From contig NC_049996.1 of NCBI RefSeq assembly GCF_000003815.2, positions 10,407,545 to 10,471,544 on the forward strand: DNA of 64,000 nucleotides, in the 5' to 3' direction. A model generated the notes under the pieces. The model ran no database searches. It was given only the letters and a program-made list of their open reading frames with translations, and was not told where the DNA came from. Shown here in pieces: positions 1,931 through 62,790 of this stretch. The first letter of the stretch is position 1, and every line of letters begins with the position of its first letter. This DNA comes from Branchiostoma floridae. Taxonomy: Eukaryota; Chordata; Leptocardii; Amphioxiformes; Branchiostomatidae. A program made the position numbers and the translations under genes.

Positions 1931-3895
1931 ACAAAGACAGCAAATCCAGTGATTTTGTGTCTGCCAATTCGTTTGCTATATCTTAGCAGATACCCACTAT
2001 TTATCTATTCGCCAAATGAGTTTAGTTAACATGACTATACTTTCTGGCGTATCATGTATGATACAACCTTCCCAAGTAATGCTTTGTGTTGATCGCCAGT
2101 ATATGATATCCATTTTGAACTAAACTTGGATGGTAGTGGTAGTTCTTTATAAACTTTATATTGCACTATGTAGCTATAGTTTATATGCATGTTTGACTCT
2201 ATCCATATTTGCGCAGCAGCAACATAGGTTCTAGTTCATACACATGTACAGGAAATAATCTCAAATCCTTCAGACTATTTTAATGAATAGATAACAGGTC
2301 AAATGATACAGGGAAGGGACTGTACGAGTTATCTCAAGAAAGATATCACTACATCTATAGATACCTTTGCTGAAATAACTCAGATAGCGCCCCCGTGGAG
2401 TCTTTTCTGTAGACATATGCTCAGTTGAGGTATGGCTGTGGACTACCAGGGGTAACCAGACTATCTCTGCAGGGATATTTGGTAATGCCCCAGCTTATAT
2501 GATAGTGGTCTACAAAGAAAAAAAGCATTTGCAGCTGTCCGTGTCGCCAAATCTACCCTAGATAGGCTGTCTGCTGAAGCTCCAGACAACTAAGTTGGTG
2601 CATCATCCAACATCTTTTTTTTTTAATTTGTTAACCTGATTATCCAAGTGTATTGATTTAAGTACAACTTTATCAAAAGACTGTATTTTGTCTGTTTTAT
2701 TTTTACAATTAATCGGACAGAGCGTGGTGTTCTTTTATTGTGAAGTATGTTTTCCAAGTCTATATATTCTTAAGGTTTATGCTAGCTCAGTGTGCATAGT
2801 ATTAATATTTACGTGTATATTGCAGTTTCAAAGATGTGAGTTCTTAAAAAAATGTAGGTAACAGTTAACTAAAGATATTTACCCCTACAGGGGTGACCAA
2901 ACGATAATTAAGGTATTATGGTTATATCTACATTTACGAAAAGGCTGAGACGGTTGTAAGAATTATTTCCATTTGCAAACGTTATCATTATTCGTTCTTG
3001 AAACATCACAGTAGTTTTCATCATGCTACCCTAAAATAGGTATTTTTTTCTCTGTGTGGTTAAAATTGTACTATTTCTGTAACGGTTAGGTTTAAAAGTG
3101 GAGTGTTATCATTTATGTACAGCGAAAGGCATTGTAAATAAGGCACTGGACTAACTTAAGTCAGTTTATGAGACGTATGTTACCCTTTTGTATTTCTACT
3201 TGTAAATCAGCAACATGTTATTCTTAGTAAGCTTAAGTTGTTGTTTGATGGTATGAGAATCAGATTGACTGAGTGCTTTGATATTTTTTTGCAGGGCAGT
3301 GGCATATTTGACAATGAATGGAGATATCATCTGACTACAACTAGCTTTGTGTTATGCATAATTATGTTATCAAAGAGACTGTAAGTTTATTTGTCATGTC
3401 TGTTTCTTTGGAGTCGTTTCATTTCGTAAAACATTGCAGAAATGCTCAAGGCACGTAATTGATGATGAATAAAGGTGATCATTAATAGACATGAATTATG
3501 CTTCCTTTACATACTCAATGAGGAAATGCTACAATAGCCTTCTTTGCTAAAAAAAGACTTTCATATTTGGGTAGAAGACATGATCAACTCCTGTGATTTA
3601 TGCAAACCAGGACATTTTTGTATAACCAATGAGAAACATTTATGATACATCAGTCAAAAGATTGACATATTTGCCAAAGGAATGAGTTTGTTTATGACCA
3701 ATGCGGCTATTTTACCAAGATCTGAAGTGCCCGAAAGTCAAGATGTTGAAAAGCCACCTCACAAATAAAAATGGAAACTTGCAATGAATCCTGAAATCCC
3801 CAGGTTTTATCCTGTTTAAATTATTAACATGCCAAAGTCATAAACAAGCACAGTCAAACCAGCCCGAGCGACCATCCCTCAGACTAGTTATTTCT
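1931..3895. other. Intergenic, no gene seen
   Basis: AT-rich DNA without convincing exons on either strand. It holds the remaining 3' flank of the jelly-roll gene and the 3' flank of the prokineticin-like gene that is transcribed towards it. Confidence 0.5.
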
Positions 3896-20540: not shown

Positions 20541-20640
20541 NNNNNNNNNNNNNNNNNNNNNNNNNNNNNNNNNNNNNNNNNNNNNNNNNNNNNNNNNNNN
20601 NNNNNNNNNNNNNNNNNNNNNNNNNNNNNNNNNNNNNNNN
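20541..20640. other. Assembly gap, 100 N
   Basis: Exactly 100 undefined bases, the usual placeholder for a gap of unknown length. On the left it follows a repeat that begins GAGGGTCTGCATG at about 20340. Confidence 0.99.
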
Positions 20641-23623: not shown

Positions 23624-23906
23624 TTATGTTACAGTTTTAACACCATATATCCGTGCACAAAATAAAGCGCTTACCAACAAGCTTTCGATCAGTCCTCTGA
23701 TCCTTCTCANNNNNNNNNNNNNNNNNNNNNNNNNNNNNNNNNNNNNNNNNNNNNNNNNNNNNNNNNNNNNNNNNNNNNNNNNNNNNNNNNNNNNNNNNNN
23801 NNNNNNNNNCAGAGCCTAACTTGAGAAGGATCAGAGGACTGATCGAAAGCTTGTTGGTAAGCGCTTTATTTTGTGCACGGATATATGGTCTTAAAATTGT
23901 AACATA
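23624..23906. repeat. Long inverted repeat flanking a 100-N gap
   Basis: Arms of about 85 bp (23624-23709 and 23822-23906) are near-perfect reverse complements, with the gap at 23710-23809 in the loop. The right arm ends 27 bp before the GPCR stop codon, so a GPCR transcript would carry it as a long hairpin at the start of its 3' UTR. The string CTGAAATCCTT occurs on both outer sides (23581 and 23908). A transposon with long terminal repeats is the simplest explanation. Confidence 0.8.
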
Positions 23907-35900: not shown

Positions 35901-38394
35901 ATGAATTAATATGCGGTTATACCCCTGTCACATCATCCACGATCTTCGGGCGTATCGATGGAAGATCGTCCATATTTATGATCGACAGAGGGTTGCGCGT
36001 ATTTTTCACCTGAAAACCATCCCTGTCACTTATAAGCTGTATTTTGCACCTTGTACAACTGTTGTGCAATAAAGTTATGATTATAAGCGAGGCTCGAGCG
36101 ATTGCCGCAGAATCGTCGTCCTATCGATTTTCGCCAAATGTGACAAGGGTATTATACCGGCTCTCCAGATACAGAAACTGGTACTTACCGGTTGATGCTG
36201 ATGTTGGACACGCTGTAGAGTGAGCAGATACAGCTGGTCATGCAGATGACACCGACAACCTCACAAACCACGGGGTGGTCCTGCAGGAACCTCTGCAAAT
36301 AAAAGACATAATAATGAAAAATTTTAAAAAATTACGACCGTTGTGTGCAGATGTTGGCGCACCGAATCCGTGTGTGTTTTTGGCACCATATTTTGTCAGA
36401 TTAGCCGTGTGCCTCGGTGGGTATATCGTGTAAAGTGCCTTTCCCAAGAGCACAAGGCCGGGGAATGGCGTATCGAACTCGCGACCTACCGATTCCGTCT
36501 CCAACGCTCTAGCCACTGCGCCGCGCCACACAGACCCCACCAAGAGACATAATCCTTCTTCTAATACTTACTCCTCCATATATGTCATGGGCTGCCTTAT
36601 ACAGAAATGGACCAGACCTTTTAAGGCCACTTATCTGCCGTACCATATAAATTTGCCCTACTTCTTCAAACATACCAAATTTGCACTACTTCTTCAAACA
36701 TACCAAATTTGCACTACTTCTTCAAACATACCCATCCTCTTGATTGTACCTTTCTGATTCTGCTTACACCTTCCACTATGTTCCGCGTGTCTAAACTGTA
36801 AGTCAGTTGCCATTTGAGATGTTTGTTGTTGAAGGTAGGGAACCCGGTCGGGAGAATGCATGAAATATACTCAAGGAAAGCGACAGAACGTCGCGTCAAT
36901 GCGAGTGGACAACAAGACAAGACCAAAATCCGTACGATCACAATTTGAAGGTATTGTTGGGGTAATCGTGCGTATGTCGTACAACATTGGGCAGGCTTGT
37001 CTTATACTGTATTAGATCCACGGCATGTTGGCGGTTTGTTCTGTCTCAGCCTGCTTCACAATCTAACAGCATTGAAATCGTACGACAAATGTGACGACGC
37101 CGTTAAAAAGACGTTTCCAACGTTTCAGACATTACAGAAGTTCATATCAATGAATGAATGAATGAACGTTATTGCTCGATAGTTGTGCACGGTATAATGT
37201 ATTGCAACAAAGCAATCATGCAACTGTACACCAAAGTAATAATTTAATGTAATGTAATGTTTTATTCAGGAACTCGCAGGCGACAAAAGTACACCCGAAT
37301 TTCGTCCTTACTACAAGACTTGACAAACAACTAACCACATGAAAACAACAATACAGACTTTCTTATTAATAATTCAGACAAAACACATCTGATCTTACAT
37401 TTTCAACATTACTGTTCTTCAGTCTATGACCACAGAAATATGAGACGTAAATGTCGCGTTGACATAAATACAGAGGTTACGCTAATGTCACATTTCCAAA
37501 CCGGGGCCCGGCCAGGCTGCTTGTGGAAACGAAGAACAGAAATGTATAGTCTGTAATTTCCTGATTTTTACAATGTACTGTTATGTTCACGGTTTTCACT
37601 GTGACGACTGCAACGTGATTTTATCATTACTGATAACAAATAATTCACAGCCTATTTTATGTGTACTTGCTGTGACAGTGAACATTTAGTTCCGAGAACA
37701 AGTTAAATTTTCTCGAACCGTGAAAGTTTGGTACCGAGAAGAGAAAGTGGATTACAGTACGTAAAATATGCACAACTCACGCCGACGACTTTTCTCTTTA
37801 CGTCTTGTGTACTTTGGTATCTTTTATTTCATACTTTTCGTTCCCGAAACCAAGGGCTCCGGTTTGGAAATGTGACATAGGCCTTATACGTTTCAATCAC
37901 ATATATGATTTAAGAAACTTTTACTTTCTTTTCTATACACTGCTTATTGGAAGTTGAAAACTGTTTCTCTCTGACTTATGTTGTTTTTTTGTGCATACAT
38001 ATGGTTTCATGCGTTTTTTGTGAAATATGAATACAGATTATGTTTAAAAGATAAGTAGATAAAAGGAATCCTTTACCTGATCTAAAATCCCGACGATATT
38101 GAAGGTGTCCACGATAGAGGAGACCATGAGATCGGCCACGGCCAGGTTAACGATGAAGATGTTGGAGACTGTGCGGAGACTCGGCGTGGTGTACACCGCC
38201 GAGATGATGAGGCAGTTCCCGAAGGTCCCGCCTGTGATCAGCACCACCAGGAGGACGGTGGACCCGATCTTCACTCCCATACTCACCTCTTCGATGTCGT
38301 AGTAGTCACCCAGCAGGGCAGAGTCGTTCACCGGGGTGGAGTTGAACGCCGCCCCCCACTCTAACGGCAGGGTGTCGTTGGTGGTGGCGTCCAT
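23933..38394 (-). CDS. Class A (rhodopsin-like) GPCR, melatonin/GPR84/moody-like
   Basis: Seven coding exons on the minus strand: 38394-38077, 36292-36189, 30599-30414, 29345-29214, 27910-27775, 24752-24664 and 24083-23933 (TAG). They total 1116 nt (371 residues), with every GT/AG pair and phase consistent. The ATG sits in CGCCATGG, a good Kozak context. Three N-glycosylation sequons lie before TM1. TM1 has GNCLIIS, TM2 NLAVADLMV. Cys3.25 is in HPVVCEVVG and pairs with GCTYDRT in loop 2. TM3 ends ISINRLL, TM4 has VSWFYSF, TM6 CWLPY. TM7 reads SSVNCLVYG and helix 8 KKFKTAFRKLL. The Asn-Arg at the end of TM3 and the overall shape fit the melatonin/GPR84/insect-moody group, but Tyr of NRY is Leu and Pro of NPxxY is Cys. 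The ligand is unknown. Confidence 0.9.
27477..27684. mobile_element. MITE, 208 bp, TA target duplication
   Basis: Starts CTGTAAATGCAGAAATGTTC and ends in the complementary GCATTTACAG, flanked by TA on each side (27475-27476, 27685-27686). The interior repeats GCGAAC/CCGCGAA words in both orientations. Termini and TA duplication point to a Tc1/mariner-type MITE. It sits in a GPCR intron. Confidence 0.8.
28858..28940. repeat. Near-perfect palindrome, ~37-bp arms, almost no loop
   Basis: CCAAATAGCAATTACTCGAG at 28861 begins an arm that folds back at about 28899 to end CTATTTGG near 28936, with a single mismatch and one 1-bp indel. It lies in a GPCR intron. It may be a tiny MITE or a head-to-head duplication. 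Confidence 0.85.
29728..30413 (-). repeat. Array of ~10 copies of the GPCR exon-3 splice-donor region
   Basis: The real exon 3 ends (minus strand) with codons for TYDRTHTF and the donor CAG|GTAAGG at 30414/30413. Further into the intron the same ~45-bp stretch recurs about ten more times, near 30340, 30270, 30205, 30140, 30070, 30015, 29945, 29870, 29800 and 29735, spaced 60-80 bp apart. Each copy carries diverged versions of the coding end, and most keep a GTAAG-like donor. The array looks like a minisatellite that captured the exon edge. Confidence 0.85.
34528..34639. mobile_element. Small MITE with 20-bp perfect TIR
   Basis: CCAAGCAGATCTTGCGGTGG at 34528-34547 is exactly reverse-complementary to CCACCGCAAGATCTGCTTGG at 34620-34639. 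ACTAAT and ATTAGT continue the match outside with small gaps. It lies in GPCR intron 2. Confidence 0.8.
35425..35735. repeat. Imperfect tandem repeat, ~50-bp units
   Basis: Units of GATACAGAAGCTGGTGTGTT + ACGCCGAAGG + a GATTATACCG-type end recur about six times, with a larger ~150-bp period (the TACCGTCTTTACATGTACAT block occurs twice). Confidence 0.75.
35917..36160. mobile_element. MITE with GTTATACCCCTGTCACAT-type ends
   Basis: GGTTATACCCCTGTCACAT at the left is answered by ATGTGACAAGGGTATTATACC at the right with minor differences. The inside carries CG-rich GATCGTC/GACGAT words. It lies about 25 bp from GPCR exon 2. Confidence 0.6.
36345..36535 (-). mobile_element. tRNA-derived SINE
   Basis: On the minus strand a tRNA-like head, GGCGCAGTGGCTAGAGCG (A box) then GGTCGCGAGTTCGATACG (B box), is followed by GTGCTCTTGGGAAAGGCACT. 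The last string also occurs downstream of SINE heads near 54.9 and 63.2 kb. Confidence 0.65.
37145..37215 (-). mobile_element. LINE 3' tail
   Basis: On the minus strand a short non-coding stretch ends in (ATTC)n, like the 3' ends of the LINE copies near 42.9, 52.9 and 63.9 kb. Confidence 0.5.
37484..37880. mobile_element. MITE, ~400 bp (copy A)
   Basis: AATGTCACATTTCCAAACCG at the left end pairs with CGGTTTGGAAATGTGACAT at the right. The right third matches copy B at 61072-61220 (TCTTTACGTCTTGTGTA and TTTTCGTTCCC words). Confidence 0.75.
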
Positions 38395-38489
38395 GGCGTG
38401 GACAGCCTGTTGAAGTGCGCGCGCACTGCTCGCACGGGTGGTGAACAGATAGCTGATAAACCTTCCCACACACAGACACCAGTAGGCTT

Positions 38490-38542
38490 CGTGACGTATG
38501 CTGATATAGGCGTGACGTATGGCGACATAGGCGTGACTCAGG
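38490..38542 (-). promoter_or_regulatory. GPCR upstream cluster of CRE and AP-1 motifs at 21-bp spacing
   Basis: About 100-150 bp upstream of the GPCR start codon, TGACGTA occurs at 38492 and 38513 and TGACTCA at 38534, exactly 21 bp apart. They lie in a 21-bp tandem unit (CGTGACGTATGCTGATATAG). The motifs are seen directly; cAMP/stress-type control is inferred. Confidence 0.45.
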
Positions 38543-38544
38543 CG

Positions 38545-40960
38545 GAATGGACCAATGGAGGCCTTAGCTTCTGTGTCCTAGTTGACGTGACTGGCTTGTA
38601 ATCATTGATATTCAAGACATTATTAAAATCATAGCCAATAGAGTGATGTACTGTTCCGTCACATCTTGTTGAAATATGGTCTCTTCTTGTTCCTTTAAAT
38701 GGTAAAGGAAAACAAAAATGGCATGTTAAAAAAATTGGATACACTTTTCTTTGTGTTTTTTAACTGCTTGTATAGATCGGCAGTCGAGATTTTGAGGGAT
38801 TGTGGATTATAATTAGCTTTCATATCTAGTGCTTTGACAGTGTCAGATTTGGTTGTTCTGTCAACATATTAGTGAATGAATAGATTATACCGGCAGTACG
38901 GTATATTCTGTAGACATACTATGCATCGAGTTGTCACTATTCCCGCGCGCCCTCACAGTTCACAGGCCACCATATAATAGGTTTCATTACTCACATGAAT
39001 AGTAACTGGAACATTTCTTTTCACAAGAGAATGAAAACTAGAGGACAAACGAAATCCCATTCATTAGCAGCTTGTTCGACATATTTTCCTCCCCATCCAA
39101 TCCCATCTTCTGCATCAGTTGTAATTAGCCACCTGGGGAGACCATTAAGTACAGTTCAGCAAAGATACATCATCTTGTATCCAACTTCCACCCATACACA
39201 CGTGTAAATCCACTTGAGTTTTTTCCATTTGCAATGATTTCTGACTTTCTTGTATCTTGTTACTATTCATTGAAGATACATAAATTCATGTAATATTTTT
39301 GTTTACATTTATTTGCTACACACTTCAGTTCTGTATTGACTGCGTTTGTACACCCAATTGTTTTCCCTTTTCCACTGGATCCGTGGATTATGTTTTGTCT
39401 ATGTCCTTATATTTCATTTGTGAATTGTGTATTTGTAGGTGAACTACAATAAAATATTTAAAAAAAAAAGACACATCTCTTGTGGCGCTATTAGATGATG
39501 GGGGAGACGCTAGAAAGTATTGCTGCTTTTGCCTACATATTTTACACACTATGTGTCTTTACGGGGTAAGGTTTTCTTGTTTTTAGTCCAGGGGATTTGA
39601 TTCCTTTTGAAACCATGACGATTAATGTCCATAACCAGATATGAAAAACATAAGCTGAGCTGTGGTTTTATAGAAAGCCCATAAGAGGTCCAAAATCGAG
39701 CTTGGTCTTTCTTTTTTGCCGACATCTATCAACAAGCTATAATCCGGATCAACCCACAGCTTCTAAACATATCCTACCAAACAACCATACACGACGATAT
39801 AGAAAAAACGTGACCTTTTCTGTGAAGGCAATGAAGTAATATGAAACATCAACAGGAATGGAGACCTTCGTGTCGAACTTTCTGGCACCTGGGACCGTGC
39901 TCTACCACGCCCGCAAGACAGCACTATAGTTCCTGTACTACAGGAGCTAATTGACTAACAAGCATCAACCTTGTATTGGCTTTGTAAAAGTATTAGTTTC
40001 ACGTTAAACTATCTAGAATTTGTCTTCACCACACTTGCTATCAGTTCTTAGTTTTTAGTTAAATCATATATATATACCTTGGTTGACGAAAGGCAGTGGA
40101 TTCTAGCCGAAACATCTGGCTGTTACCAAAATCGATGCAGTTGCTCGTCGAGTATCTGTTAAGTTAACTTGTGTAGACGTAACATACTTTGCCAGACATA
40201 AGATCTACGTGTCTGAAACACAGCGGCGTTAACTCAACAAAACGGTGTTAAGCCATCTTTCTGTTCTCAGTTCTATACGTGTTACTGTATACTTCAACTG
40301 TAAAATTTCAAGATAGAAACCCTGCGTGGATTTACCAGTCACCATCGGAGGGAAATGGAGTCTCATAAAGTACGTACGAGGTGTCTATGGAAACGTGACC
40401 AAAATACCATGTTTAACTCAGTAGGAGGTAGGCGATTCTAAGAAGGAGGTCACACAGACGTACAGTGTTTAGATTAATAAGTCTGGCAACGTGTACGTAC
40501 GAAAACAAACAGTATTCTACAAGAGTTCGGAGACTTTATACCTCAAGGAAATGTTTAGAGCTTTTGTAGATTTATAGCCTTATCTTGTCTCATTAAGTAT
40601 GCAAATAAGGTTCTAATTAGCATGATTTACTTTATTTATGTTGCTTTTCTTAACTAAAGAACACAGATTTTATGTGTAGAAGTTCCTTCGTTTAGCAAAA
40701 ATCCAAGTTAACATTTTGTAATAAATTATGTTTCTTTCTCATTAACATAATCAATTAATCATAGTGTACGCTTTTAACTAGCTCACGCATGTCACAACTA
40801 GAAAATCCCACCATTTACCACTACAGAATTATGGCACTTTCACATTAATCATAGTCTGCCTTATTTGTATAATTAGTATCTGTTGATGTTTCACCTGCCA
40901 TAAATTGAATACTTTACCTGTATAAATTTAGAAAGATATATTATAGAATAAAACTAGAAT
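38545..40960. other. Intergenic, no gene seen
   Basis: AT-rich DNA without splice-bounded frames. Nothing recognisable apart from scattered repeat fragments. Confidence 0.5.
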
Positions 40961-56132: not shown

Positions 56133-59100
56133 ATGTGGCGACAACACGTCATGACAGAACAGATCTTCCGAGAGGACAAGGAGAGGGAAACGTACCGTGA
56201 CGTCAGGGAGGGGGAAAAGCGCGGGAAACTTCCCTTCAACAGGAGCAAGGTCCTGTTCGTAGGAGACACGTGGCAGGGGAAGACCAGTTTGAAGAAACGA
56301 CTGACAGGACAGGAGTTTGACCCCCACGAGGGGCGGACTGAAGGGATACAAACTAAGATGGTGGAGACACAAGAGGTGGACCAGACCTGGGCAACGCGTC
56401 ATCACAATGAGTCAGACTACAGCAGGAGTCTGGCTTGGTTCGTCGCACAAAGAAGTAAGAAACGTCCGAAGAAAGGCGCCACGAAAGATCTCGGTAGTTT
56501 GATGAAAACTGCTTCGTTTTACTTCGTTCTGTCGTTTCTGGCGGTGACGGCGCTGGAGTTTGGGTCTAGAGTAGGGTACGCTGTGGCGTCCCTACTTTTG
56601 ACCAGTACAATCTTTATGATGCATCTGAACTCTGATTTCTACCACGTCACGAGGATTGCCTCCGCTATCGCTGTGAACAGTGTCTTCATAGGCGTCATGA
56701 AAAACGGCGTGGAAGATTTGTACCAATCTATTGGTCCTATCCTGTCGATGGGACCCTTCTCTCTACAGGGTTTTGTTTTCTGTGTCACGGTAACGTTCGT
56801 TTTCTGTCTCACAGAAGGGTTTGTAGTGTTCCCCTTCACCTGTAGGGTTATGCACATCATGCTGTGTTTGGTCGCGCCGTGTCCGGAGTTTGGAGCTGTC
56901 GGGATCCTTCACTTCAGGACGACTGACACTCCAGCCGGTCATGAACTTCAACATGCATTCTTGTTCGAACCGCTAGGGAGCGTTATTGGTCTAACTATGT
57001 TTCAATTCAGACACATTCTCATCAAGACCAAGCTCGGGACTATCTTTACCTACCTCTTATTCNNNNNNNNNNNNNNNNNNNNNNNNNNNNNNNNNNNNNN
57101 NNNNNNNNNNNNNNNNNNNNNNNNNNNNNNNNNNNNNNNNNNNNNNNNNNNNNNNNNNNNNNTAAGGATGATGCCCCGTGGGTCTTCATCTTGGCATCGG
57201 TATTTCGTGCACAATCAAGGCTCAGAAATGGCTTTCGTCAAAAATGACGGCACAGTACTTCTGGGTTGTTCAGCTGGTATCCTTCCCTGTACAGATAGCA
57301 ACGATATTGACCATCGCAAACCTGTTTGGCTGGCGTTTCTATACACTGAAAGATTGTCCTCTCTCCGCAATGGTGGCGGTAGCATTCTTTGTCTGCACAG
57401 ATTTATACGATAAGAAGAGCGTTTTCTTCAACTCTGAGTATCCCGTTGTTCATGACAAGCTTGTCGAAGAGGAGACATTGGCGGCTCAGGTACCAGTCAA
57501 GCTGACGCTGATGGATTTTGCGGGAGATGAGGACTTCTACAGCATGCACCATTTCTTCATGGCACGAGAGGCTGTTTACGTGCTGGTGTTCAGTCTAGCG
57601 GAAGCCGCTAGGGGGCCCCACCGCACGTTTAGGAGGCTGCTGTTCTGGTTAGATTCCATCGACACCCATTCCGCCGACACGGACTCTCTCGTCTTTGTGG
57701 TGGGGACCCACAGGGACAGCGTGTCGTCTGCCCAGCGACAAGAAGTGGCCTCTTTCCTCAGAACACACCTGTACACCTGTACCAAGTACAGCGGCCGACT
57801 TGTGATCAACACCGCAGAAACACCGTACTTTCCCGTAGAAAACTCCGCATCGCTAGAGGACCAGGACTTCGCGCGCTTACGGACAGTCATGTGGCAGAAA
57901 ATGCAACAGGTGGCCTACATGAAGAGGGAATGTCCAATCAAATGGCAGCGATTCTCTGACGTCATCGGCACCCTACAGACCAATAGGGACCCGCATGTGG
58001 TACCCTACCATGACCTGTTTGAGAAAGTGCGTAAGGAAGACATTCTGGAGGATGAAGACGACTTTAGACGAATGTTATCCTTCTTTAACAGATCCGGACA
58101 AGTTATCTATCATGAGAAAGACGCAGTGTTGAGTCAATACGTGGTGGTTGACCCACAGGTATTGGTAGACGCCATGAAAAGCATCACAACTCTCCCCAGA
58201 CATACCGCAGAACTACCGACGTATCGTGAAAGACACGCGATGTTGCGAGCCCAGGGCATCCTGGATGGAGACTTTCTCGCGGAGGTTCTGAACGAAGTCA
58301 AACCCGATCACGCCGACGTCCTCACGACTCTCCTCGTGTCGCACGACTTTCTCTGCCCCTTACCCCAACATCCCGCCGACAAGAAGTCACCACTGATGAA
58401 ACAGAGATACCTCGTCCCACCCATGTTGCCTCGTTACGAAACTGACCAACCGGGAGGCTTGTTCGAAAAACACCACGATGACGACAACGTTGAATACTAC
58501 ATCGATTTTGATTCGTTCGAGCCTAGCCCTGTGTTCTACAGGTTGGTCGCCAAGCTTGTTTGTGAGACGGACTTCAAGATCCGAGCTCGAGGAGCGCCGT
58601 TCGTCTTTAAGGACAGGGCGTGTTTTCAACTCCATCGCCTGTTCTACTTCACATTGGAGCTGGTCCGGGCAAGTACAGACCAACACCTCATCCAGATAAC
58701 CGTCAAGAAGACTTCTTCTACAGCTGCGGACGGACAACTCATTAAAGAACTGCACGGGAAGCTGGAGATGATCAGGTATGTGTGGCAAGACATTTTGTCC
58801 CAGACTCAACTGTATTCGCAGGTGGTTTGTGTCTCATTAAGAAGTGATCATAAATGTACCGTGGTCGGTAGGAGTTAGGTGTTAGGTTTGATGTAAAATG
58901 TTAGCTGTGCATTCGTCCCAGACTGAGACCTATTAGCAGGTGGACCATGGCCGTTAGGTGCTAGGTTTTCAGTTGTTTCAAATATAACATGGCACTATAT
59001 AACATAACACTGAGTTCCCAAGGGAGACACGAAATGAACCCCTGGTGCAGGTTTTATTTCAAGCGAACTGTAGATAGTTTATCATGAAAACACAGTGAGC

Positions 59101-62100
59101 TATCAAAATTGATGTCATGTAGTTTTGTAAGGTTCTCTGTTAGGTTTGGAAACGCTGTGTCCAATATCTTGCCAATTAAGCGGCCTTTACTGTATTGTGA
59201 TCAGGCAGAGGGATTTCCCGTGTCTGACGTACACCATGGGCCCGAGGTGCCCCCATCCTCCCCCGCACTTGGACCACAGTACCGAGCCGGGCGCCGTGCA
59301 CGTGGTGGAGGTAGTGGAGTCAGGAGAAGAGTTCCCCGACTCTACCCAACCACTGAAGCTGTTGTGTCGGGATCGGGAGGTCGTGGTCGACATGAGCGGT
59401 GGGTTTCGTGCTTTCCTATTTGAAGTATTTCCAGTGTTAAATCAATGTATGTATTTCCAATGTATAATTGTACACCTTTGACATATAATTGTCACATCCA
59501 TGACATCTGTTTCGTGGTCGACATGTGCTGTAGGTTTCTTTCTTTCCTATTTACAATGTATAGTACTCACATCTGTTGTTGTCATTTCTACAAACTAGGT
59601 GTAGTCTCCAAGCCTAGTCCAAGCAAATCCTATGATCCAGTTTACGTTTGGTGTCTTTTTATGCGTTTTGTCTGGCTTTCTTTTTTCGCCTCTTTTTCTT
59701 TTTGTCTTTCTGTAGACAAAAAGAAAACCTGACAAAAAAGCAAGCTCCACAAAACAATGTCAAAAAGACGCCCAAAACAAGTCGGAGCCAAACCTCTACA
59801 GGGAAAGTACCATGGGAGTTCGTTAACGGCGTTTCTCAGTAGTTTTTGGCGACGCCTCAGGGGCGAGCCTGTATTGTGTGCAGTTTATTGTACAGTCTGC
59901 AAGGTTTGGTGTGTCTTATGTTCACCTCCAGGAAGAAACAATCGTTGCCATGGCAATAATGTTTGTATTGCAATTCTTTAACAGGACTGAGGTCCAGGCT
60001 TCCGCTACATCAGCCAGTAGAGCATGAAGAACCTTCACATCCCTTCCAAGTGCCGACACAAGAGAGGAGCTTCCAACCAACCGCGTCTGCATACGCCGGT
60101 AGGTGCAGGCATTCACAACCGTCCACCATCGTCATACAGGAAACAGCGCCGCCTAGCGATTTACTCCCGAAGCCCGACGAGCACGGCCTTTACGACGTCA
60201 AACGTTGGCTTCAAGTTGCGCAAGACCCCGAGTCTGCATTCGACAAAGGAGAGGTAAAATTTGAGTAGAGATATTAACATGTCAACTATGCAATTAGAAT
60301 TGTGCAGACTGTTAAGAGATGGATGTAAAGCAGAGACGGTGGGCGCGATAGACTGCCTGTAACATATGATCCACTGTTCGCGGAGTCCTTTGTGCTATCC
60401 ACATAACTTGGTGTCACAGAAGGTTGTTTATTCATTGACAAAGATTGGAGCTGTTTAGTCGAAAATTTAGGTAAATGTAATTTTCGTGTTGGAAATTACC
60501 GTTCAACCTTTTCCAGAATGACTTCTACCAACACAGATGAACTTTCGTGTTAAGAAACGAACACTATCTCTTATCCCCCAGTGTTACCCCATGTGGAAGA
60601 GGCCCAGAGGAGACGCTCTCATCATTAACAACAGGGACTTCGTTACCATGGCGACCCGTCACGGGACAGATGTGGACGCTGAAAACCTGGAGCGACTGTT
60701 CGAGGCGCTGTACTTCACCACGGAGAGATGGAACAATCTCAGGGCGCCGGTGGGTAGTAGTTAGATAACCTGTGTTACGGTGACAACTGCACCGGTGCCA
60801 GTCAACATGAAGTCTATATGCTTGTTTCTCAAAGTTAGAATACCAGAATGAATATCCAGAATGTCTATTGTATAATGTATAATGTGTATAATTATGCTGG
60901 GATGGTTGGCATCACATCATCACCTCCTATGGCAACACATCTATAACCATGAGAGCCAAACATGACTACAATGCGTACTGTCAATGGCTATCAGTTAATG
61001 AAAGTCAGTTACTCCTAACAATATCTCTTCGTTTTTTTCTGGCGGTTTTAAACGTTACGCCCTTTGAAGGTTAACGTCACATTTCCAAACCGAAAACGAA
61101 AAATATGTACGTAAAAATATACACAAATAATGCCCACGACTATTCTCTTGTTCTTTATTCGTCTTGTGTAATTAGTTTGGTCTTTACTTTTCGTGCCCAA
61201 AAGCTGGAAATATGACATAGGCCTTACCTGTGTCGTTTTAGGTGATGAAACTGGTTCTGGAAGACTTTGCCCAGAGAAGCCACGCGCAGTCGCAGTGCTG
61301 TCTGGTCGCCATCCTGAGTCACGGTGGAGATGAAGGGGTGTACAGCACGGACGAACAGCTGCTGTCGCACGCCGACATCCTCAGCAAGTTCGACGGGAAC
61401 AACTGTCCAGACCTCAGCTCCAAACCTAAAGTCTTCTTCATGCAGGCTTGTAGGGGAAGTGAGTATCATGTCATCTGGTACTTTTTTACCTCCGTGAAAA
61501 GGAGGTATTCTAGTCAGTCCACAGTGTTATGAATATTGCATGGAATATTGCATGGTGACAGTATGTAAGGCGGAGGTGGTGTAATAGGATACCAGGAGAA
61601 TTGGAAGTAGGATCTTGTATTATTGTAGTTGAGACCCAGCATTATTTATATAACATAACAAGCAGAAGAATTTCGTCAATGAATCTTTACTATACTTTGT
61701 CTCTTGAGGAGTTTTCTTCACAAGGTTTACCTTAAAGATGCACGGCGTTACAGCAATGATATTAAGCTGAATAACGCAGACAGCTGGAATGATTAAAATT
61801 GTATTACCATATCAAAGGCATACATTAATGATTTGAACGAGGATAGATAATCAACGATTTGTAAAACTGTAACGTAACAGTCTTGTTTTGTCAAAGCTGA
61901 CAAAGACCGCGGCTCTCCCGCCACTGACTCCGGAGAAACATTCCGGAAGCACGAGACCGCCAGGACCAGTCCGGATACGCACCGGACCTTCTCCACTCGG
62001 GTGCCGAACCTTACCGACGTCTACCTCGCCTACTCCACCACTCCGGGTAAGGATTGACTTACTTACTTAGGCCCTTTGCCCCAGTCGGGCATAGGCCACC

Positions 62101-62790
62101 AATGATCGTCTTCCATTGTACACGTCTCTGGGCCTTCCTTCTCGGGTCATTCCAGCTGTTACTGATGCTCCTCATCTCTTCCTCAGTGTCCCTTCTCCAG
62201 CTGTTCTTGGGCCTTCCCCTCTTTCGTTTGCCCTGTGGGTTCCAAGTTAGGGCCTGGTGTGTTATGTTCGTTGGTGGCTTTCTTTCCAGGACCACTTCCT
62301 CTTGACACGAGATTTGAAAAGAGTGGAATAATAGAAGTTGGATCAATCTTGGAATAGTACGACTAGAAATTTTGCTTCTACCTGCGGTTTTTGCAGGTCA
62401 CGTCTCCTGGCGGGACTGTGAGGGCGGGTCGTGGTTTATCCAGGTGCTGGTGTCTGTGTTCCTGAAGTACGCCGCTACCAAAGATATCAACCAGCTCATG
62501 ACAAAGGTAACTAACTCTATCGTCAGTCAGTCAGTTAAGGTAGGTTTGAATTCAATAATCTTGACATTAGAAATTAAGTAGAGAAATTAAGTAGAGATCA
62601 AACTGACGGAATTCAACCAAAATTATACAGCAAAATTTTATTTTTCATTTTTTTTTAAATGTTGTTTCCCTCCTAGGTTAACCACGAGGTATCCCGAAAG
62701 TTCGAGTCGGACAAACATGACAAACAGATGCCTGCTCCCGTCAACATGCTCACAAAGGACCTCTTCTTCTGTTCGGGGTGGCACCGTTAA
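56133..62790 (+). CDS. Roco (Roc-COR) GTPase fused to a caspase, with membrane segment inside Roc
   Basis: Eight coding exons: 56133-58775 (contains a 100-N gap), 59205-59398, 59985-60253, 60582-60749, 61242-61458, 61897-62046, 62397-62506 and 62677-62790 (TAA). The ATG lies in GCCACCATGT with an in-frame stop upstream at 56112, inside an exon opened by an acceptor at 56092. Order of parts: P-loop GDTWQGKT (residues 44-51) and switch-I-like RTEGIQ; six or so hydrophobic helices; G3 DFAGDE (57514); G4 THRD (57706); COR (CPIKWQRF, YHDLFEKV, SGQVIYHE, YVVVDPQVLV); a Cys-rich COR-end exon; a linker; then a caspase domain. All exon junctions from 58775 onward keep phase. Roco proteins are GTP-regulated dimers, often with Death or kinase partners; the caspase would be the effector here. 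An ATTAAA is at 62942. The start is firm; sequence around the gap is not. Confidence 0.85.
56485..57420 (+). other. Multi-helix membrane segment inserted in the Roc domain
   Basis: Between the P-loop (56262-56285) and the DxxG motif (57514) lie about 340 or more residues where typical Roc domains have some tens. Hydrophobic stretches include SFYFVLSFLAVTAL, VASLLLTSTIFMM, GFVFCVTVTFVFCL, CRVMHIMLCLVA and, after the gap, FPVQIATILTIANLF and AMVAVAFFV. A 100-N gap (57063-57162) lies within. Frame before the gap (that of 56133) differs from the frame used after 57250; just after the gap another frame, KDDAPWVFILASVF, is also open. Confidence 0.65.
57063..57162. other. Assembly gap, 100 N, inside the Roco-caspase first coding exon
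   Basis: Exactly 100 N, therefore of unknown true length. It may hide an intron or several helices. The second gap of this kind, at 23710-23809, lies within the inverted repeat at the GPCR 3' end. Confidence 0.99.
61072..61220. mobile_element. MITE (copy B), ~150 bp
   Basis: AACGTCACATTTCCAAACCG at the left and GCTGGAAATATGACAT at the right correspond to the ends of copy A (37484-37880). The right end is 22 bp before the caspase exon at 61242, that is, over or beside its branch-point region. Confidence 0.65.
62056..62330 (-). mobile_element. LINE 3' end (RTE/craniate-like C terminus)
   Basis: On the minus strand a frame reads HQALTWNPQGKRKRGRPKNS, WRRDTEEEMRSI and VGGLCP-like IIGGLCPTGAKG. 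This is the characteristic C terminus of a group of non-LTR retrotransposons. An (AAGT)n tail follows at 62056-62070. It is severely 5'-truncated and lies in a caspase intron. Confidence 0.8.

Follow-up and report, generated by a model that had tools for sequence, protein, structure and literature searches.

Can a Roco-type GTPase module and a complete caspase be parts of one lancelet protein, and if so, how could such a protein work? The question is raised by a 64,000-nucleotide stretch of the Branchiostoma floridae genome (C18:10407545-10471544; the window below), in which a preliminary description, made from the letters alone, had placed Roc-COR and caspase coding sequence in one reading frame. 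We rebuilt the gene model and searched the 513-Mb assembly (431 contigs) for relatives. In our opinion it is rather probable that the locus is one gene encoding a membrane-bound Roco protease, composed of a Roc domain split at its interswitch by a multi-pass hydrophobic domain, a COR region, a linker and an intact caspase, whose activation would be driven by pairing.

One reading frame from Roc-COR to caspase

In the rebuilt model, Roc motifs, COR-A and a complete caspase share a single frame of 941 open residues, which runs through eight exons from the 3' side of an assembly gap to the stop at 62790 (Table 1). AG/GT borders are present wherever exons are spliced, and from 57172 through that stop the phases are consistent; the agreement previously claimed for 58775 to 62790 is confirmed and extends further upstream. 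The wider claim, one frame for the whole locus, stands from 57172 to the stop, but the first exon is interrupted by the 100-N gap at 57063-57162, with a frame change across it and stops at its edge.

The in-frame codon score is the best of the three forward frames in all eight exons. Exon 3 (59985-60253), which indeed contains no in-frame ATG, codes in the expected frame, with a score of 0.098 against a 99th percentile of 0.039 for 269-bp non-coding pieces of the window; the six introns scored (all but 62507-62676) stay below 0.039 in all six frames. The score is weak in exon 62677 (0.041 against a 99th percentile of 0.147), exon 61897 falls slightly short of its 99th percentile, and a reverse frame outscores the coding frame in exons 7 and 8.

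The caspase domain is full length. It covers positions 2-233 of the 233 of the Pfam C14 peptidase profile (E 5.9e-57), so that the SHGG, QACRG and SWR...GSWF motifs already noticed belong to a complete domain, and in an alignment with caspase-9 and caspase-7 the catalytic histidine (SHG), the catalytic cysteine (QACxG) and the substrate arginine (SWR) are all kept. Protease activity of the window protein is predicted. In comparison with the PDB, caspase-9, -7, -3 and CED-3 are nearly level in score among the best 60 of 238 matches, and because the top scores are nearly equal the caspase class is not assignable from this comparison. Pfam finds no CARD, DED or Death match ahead of the protease in the joined model or in exon 3, and no match of any kind in exon 3 up to E 1. 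The closest caspase paralogue lies on contig C14 near 21.35 Mb; no COR match lies near it, and six of the open frames around it (five upstream, one between its exons) give no Pfam match. A megablast of exon 4 against phages returned no match, as expected.

A Roc domain split by a hydrophobic insert

A domain search of the joined model recovers Roc, COR-A and the full-length caspase. Roc, however, comes in two pieces, the first matching profile positions 1-46 (amino acids 39-84, E 1e-6) and the second 53-119 (E 8.8e-9), with hydrophobic sequence between them. Both pieces are above the Pfam cut-off, as is the COR-A match (E 3.9e-10) that follows directly. The G1 (GDTWQGKTS), G3 (DFAG) and G4 (THRD) motifs are present, as the preliminary description had it for the first exon, but it overlooked both the gap and the insert, which splits the domain. 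The best PDB sequence match of the Roc part is LRRK2, and Pfam finds no leucine-rich repeat (LRR) in the window model.

The gap is not the cause of the split: in L003, L006 and L010, relatives in this genome, Roc also comes in two Pfam pieces, and these lie within one uninterrupted exon. In the six relatives, out of seven, where both motif patterns were found, G1 and G3 are 381-403 amino acids apart; this distance is 47 in the ordinary Roc domains of two LRR-containing genes, L031 and L032. By alignment the insert maps to the turn between beta2 and beta3, that is, to the interswitch hairpin. With a crude hydropathy cut, which gives no topology, four to seven segments pass between the motifs in the seven relatives, and in the window three segments pass before the gap and one after it. 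Apart from residual Roc/Ras in one, four of these membrane inserts had no Pfam match up to E 1.

Judged by its sequence, the module looks like a membrane protein. The two halves of Roc have to fold as one, and the insert should therefore start and finish on one face of the membrane, which predicts an even number of spans. In Arf GTPases it is the interswitch hairpin that links nucleotide state to the membrane, and by analogy the Roc insert may couple the two in a comparable way.

Relatives that end in Death or CARD

Eleven close relatives of the Roc-COR part were found at E 1.2e-29 or better, six of them on C15 and one each on C17, C12, C1, C8 and C2; the closest, on C17 (L002), is 41% identical. 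The 3' exon was read in ten of the eleven (L005 was left out): nine are Death-like and one is a CARD (L003, on C12). Pfam, run on six of the ten, finds CARD in L003 (E 1.5e-12) and Death in L002, L004, L006, L008 and L012; the remaining four Death-like ends were assigned by eye. These Roc-COR paralogues share with the window the COR region, the tail behind it and, where the exon is complete, the same insert, but they end in Death or CARD whereas the window gene ends in a protease.

The manner in which the last module is attached is similar too. The exon 2 tail is 49% identical to the C17 tail over 62 amino acids. L002 has a phase-1 donor, placed by eye about four residues beyond that of window exon 2, from which it is spliced in phase to a Death exon; the phase-1 donor of window exon 2 leads into the linker exon 59985-60253. 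L003, L004 and L006 splice from a phase-0 donor to a linker exon of 67 bp, and from there enter CARD or Death in phase 1. In all four relatives whose splicing was modelled (L002, L003, L004, L006), the last module is entered in phase 1, as in the window. One gene in which Roc-COR replaces a death-fold prodomain, as had been proposed, is to our mind the best reading of the sequence, and it is strengthened by paralogues that carry Death or CARD after the same Roc-COR.

Some of these paralogues deserve a remark of their own. The six on C15 (L005-L009, L012) form a cluster at 12.97-13.01 Mb, where the five examined end Death-like; L005 has a run of N within its insert. L003 (C12:21728078-21729358) is the sole CARD-ended split-Roc COR among the ten examined. 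The C2 copy (L011, 677175) has its frame broken inside the insert and is perhaps a pseudogene or an assembly error. On the reverse strand of L002, at about 3200-3650, the Death exon is preceded by several tandem near-copies of its own start with acceptor-like ends, possibly repeated exon fragments.

Recurrence of the order in the genome

We compared 91 places (84 COR-A matches and 7 further LRR-Roc-COR matches) with 94 caspase matches. At seven of the 91 a caspase match lies at most 4 kb downstream on the same strand, where uniform placement would give 0.033, and no COR-caspase pair lies on opposite strands. Five of the seven belong to one duplicated LRR-Roc-COR family on C14. Of the nine LRR-Roc-COR matches with at least 62% identity, counting the query, a caspase follows in five; at the sensitivity of the search the other four have none. 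In L031 an LRR-Roc-COR exon is spliced in phase to two caspase exons across introns of 206 and 303 bp, and in L032 a small exon stands between LRR-Roc-COR and the caspase, again in phase, and the introns measure 178, 138 and 310 bp. Introns so short leave little room for separate genes. That Roc-COR-caspase joining recurs in this lancelet is, in our view, well supported.

The C14 genes (L031, L032 and three more by position) resemble the window in having Roc-COR followed by caspase, in phase in the two modelled. They differ from it by an LRR N-terminal end, by an uninterrupted Roc in place of a split one, and by caspases that fall elsewhere in the tree. That tree, of 38 caspase large-subunit pieces and 72 columns, has the caspases that follow Roc-COR in three places, which needs three changes: the window stands beside the C14 21.35-Mb caspase (98/95), the LRR-Roc-COR genes form a clade (96/91), and a C10 caspase is apart. 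With C10 set aside two separate places remain, those of the window and of the C14 LRR clade. A single gain of the fusion followed by losses is still compatible with these data, because the tree has only 72 columns and the window sits on a long branch.

The LRR-Roc-COR genes are arranged in arrays on C14 (1.94-2.05, 2.90-2.93 and 18.61 Mb), to which L031 and L032 belong. The C10 COR-caspase pair, 2980 bp apart, was dropped as a secure fusion, with a run of N between its members and reversed neighbours. At C10:16992224 and 17039249 (L065, L066), caspase-like exons beside COR genes read QASGG and QATVG; the cysteine is lost and they are likely dead caspases.

Relation to known proteins

Roco proteins of the DAPK1 and MFHAS1 type also tie Roc-COR to cell-death or immune signalling, as the window gene would; to our knowledge they have neither a caspase nor a membrane insert in Roc. 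Among the matches listed from the open-access literature, we found neither an animal Roc-COR-caspase nor a Roc with a membrane insert.

The order itself is less isolated than was first supposed. The suggestion that it was unique is contradicted by the five LRR-Roc-COR genes followed by caspase exons in the same genome, and by two published reports. Passages of the 2008 paper PMC2575513 describe amphioxus 'shortcut' hybrids, TNFR-caspase (confirmed by cDNA) and LRRs-caspase; its main text has 0 matches for roc, gtpase and gtp. In these hybrids of B. floridae a receptor-type module passes directly into a caspase, an arrangement that the order and phases of the window would fit; what precedes the caspase in the window, however, is a GTPase whose Roc is split and carries a membrane-type insert. 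It may be that the LRRs-caspase of that paper corresponds to the LRR-Roc-COR-caspase genes of C14. In passages of PMC8195603 (2021), at least 24 C-terminal domains, caspase being one of them, are described for bacterial AP-GTPase (Roc)-COR proteins; like the window, those with a caspase have Roc-COR and then a caspase effector, but they are bacterial and have N-terminal LRRs, and no membrane insert is mentioned in those passages. Parts of PMC3196919 report 45 or more caspase genes in amphioxus, with novel architectures; in its text GTPase has 0 matches and 'roc' two, one of them a company name. Sections of papers on Aplysia and on anemone have Roc-COR joined to TIR, Death and others, with no caspase among them. 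Roc-COR-caspase joining is not unprecedented; what is new is the split, membrane-type Roc together with an exchangeable Death, CARD or caspase end.

Alternative explanations

Several observations weigh against a single, intact, membrane-type Roco protease, and we think they should be told together. The frame differs across the gap at 57063-57162, with TAA and TGA in the downstream frame at 57163-57171, and the P-loop lies 5' of the gap and DFAG 3' of it, so the join of the two Roc halves is unread. The P-loop half of the C17 relative has no match in the 4.4 kb and 1.2 kb examined (L002, L034), which leaves a split of the C17 Roc unsupported. Up to E 0.1 Pfam finds no COR-B in the window; it does find one in L031 and L032 and, below cut-off, in L006. 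AlphaFold2 on window 57172-58773 alone gave a mean confidence (pLDDT) of 40.5, from which no structural reading was drawn. Exon 3 has no second copy among the genome matches found, hence no relative to confirm it, and continuity of the transcript from Roc-COR into the caspase is predicted from the genomic letters. Two COR/caspase pairs, both on C10, have the reverse order. Finally, eight of the eleven relatives (L004-L007, L009-L012) have S, K or N in place of the G4 aspartate, so that an ordinary GTP switch is doubtful for much of the family.

The break at the gap would be explained if the locus were damaged or mis-assembled, a decaying copy or a chimera at the gap: there are the 100 N, the frame change and the stops at the gap edge. 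A decayed copy, however, is difficult to reconcile with 941 open residues after the gap and caspase motifs that are all intact, and the window's G1-G3 spacing outside the gap is already 379 amino acids, near the 381-403 of the family, so little sequence should be missing. We consider this explanation quite improbable. It is also improbable, though a little easier to imagine, that there are two neighbouring genes, a Roc-COR gene ending at exon 59205 or in an unseen exon, and a short-prodomain caspase starting at ATG 60591 or in an unseen 5' exon. Translation of a bare caspase could begin at that in-frame ATG, a few residues ahead of the caspase domain; upstream of the caspase part lie several frames that open with an ATG and may have a phase-1 donor; and the absence of a COR match near the closest caspase paralogue fits the same idea. 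Yet the tail of the C17 paralogue exits at a phase-1 donor into a further coding exon, exon 3, which codes and has no in-frame ATG, fits phase 1, and elsewhere the order recurs with introns down to 138-206 bp. When the Death and CARD exons of the relatives were used in tblastn, the window matched only at E 1.7 or worse. No AATAAA lies between Roc-COR and caspase on the coding strand (58776-62790, with one variant ATTAAA at 61792), and three follow soon after the stop; because the 64-kb window holds 42 AATAAA, 4 kb without one is only mildly unlikely by chance and we take this as mild support only.

A different objection accepts the fused gene and doubts its switch: nucleotide cycling might be lost or irrelevant, and clustering by the membrane domain alone would pair the caspases. 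The extreme G1-G3 spacing, compared with 47 residues in L031 and L032, is in its favour, and so is the missing G4 aspartate of the relatives. The window itself, however, keeps that aspartate, as do C17, C12 and L008; G1, G3 and THRD are all kept in the window and C12 (L003), and G3 with THRD in C17, while an insert in a surface hairpin may be tolerated. We regard this objection as unlikely to be right, although it deserves to be kept in mind. With the G4 aspartate lost in most relatives, nucleotide control is not to be assumed family-wide.

Proposed mechanism and origin

How, then, could the fused Roco protease arise and act? Behind the phase-1 intron, the Death or CARD module of the sister proteins was probably replaced by a caspase. 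The membrane domain would serve in sensing or localisation; a change in it would remodel Roc at its switch region, after which the nucleotide cycle would alter COR-mediated pairing. Pairing would bring two caspase domains together, leading to activation by induced proximity and to self-cleavage in the Asp-containing linker. The recruitment step through a Death or CARD adaptor would be bypassed, while the sister Death or CARD ends would recruit proteins, perhaps caspases.

According to passages of PMC6337361, Roc-COR is a main pairing module, and a bacterial Roco protein is a monomer with GTP and a dimer when nucleotide-free or with GDP. Work cited in PMC2575513 indicates that a caspase catalytic domain can become active when it is forced to pair. 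The 'GTP-switched dimerisation' of the preliminary description may thus run the opposite way, because the bacterial Roco dimer that was studied is the nucleotide-free or GDP form. A nucleotide-controlled protease is plausible; GTP binding and hydrolysis, control by GTP, pairing and the membrane topology of the window protein are all predictions from its sequence.

Features of the locus

Table 1. Parts of the putative Roc-COR-caspase gene and downstream signals, in window positions
Feature	Position	Strand	Content
Exon 1, part before the gap	56133..57062	+	Start codon, Roc G1 (P-loop GDTWQGKTS), beta2, start of hydrophobic multi-pass insert; open frame of 310 aa
Assembly gap	57063..57162		100 N, inside exon 1
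Exon 1, part after the gap	57172..58775	+	End of insert, Roc G3 (DFAG), G4 (THRD), COR-A; 534 open codons
Exon 2	59205..59398	+	Conserved tail after COR; phase-1 donor at end
Exon 3	59985..60253	+	Linker of about 90 aa, without recognised domain
Exon 4	60582..60749	+	Start of caspase domain (PRGDALIINNRDF); first in-frame ATG of caspase part at 60591
Exon 5	61242..61458	+	Caspase large subunit; SHGG and QACRG (catalytic His and Cys motifs)
Exon 6	61897..62046	+	Inter-subunit linker with several Asp; start of small subunit
Exon 7	62397..62506	+	Small subunit; SWRDCEGGSWF
Exon 8	62677..62790	+	End of caspase and stop codon
Candidate poly(A) signals	63632, 63740, 63948	+	AATAAA

Elsewhere in the window there are two further 100-N assembly gaps (20541-20640 and 23710-23809) and, on the reverse strand at 38044-38577, a rhodopsin-family receptor exon (Pfam 7tm_1, E 1.7e-9).

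Implications

Initiator caspases are normally activated via separate adaptors. If our reading of the locus is true, a GTPase module and a cell-death protease make up a one-protein death switch here, and a single Roc-COR-protease protein would let the coupling between Roco pairing and output be read by a simple cleavage assay. The joining of Roc-COR to different caspase branches in one genome suggests that the same shortcut evolved more than once.

In our opinion the wider family matters more, since it would be unusual for membranes and nucleotide state to be coupled through a membrane domain housed in the interswitch hairpin of a GTPase. Tentatively, and at somewhat less than an even chance, we propose an animal GTPase class in which a polytopic membrane domain sits in the Roc interswitch hairpin, so that membrane events would act on the switch. 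To this module lancelets would attach Death, CARD or caspase, and the present locus would be a membrane-gated, nucleotide-controlled and adaptor-free caspase.

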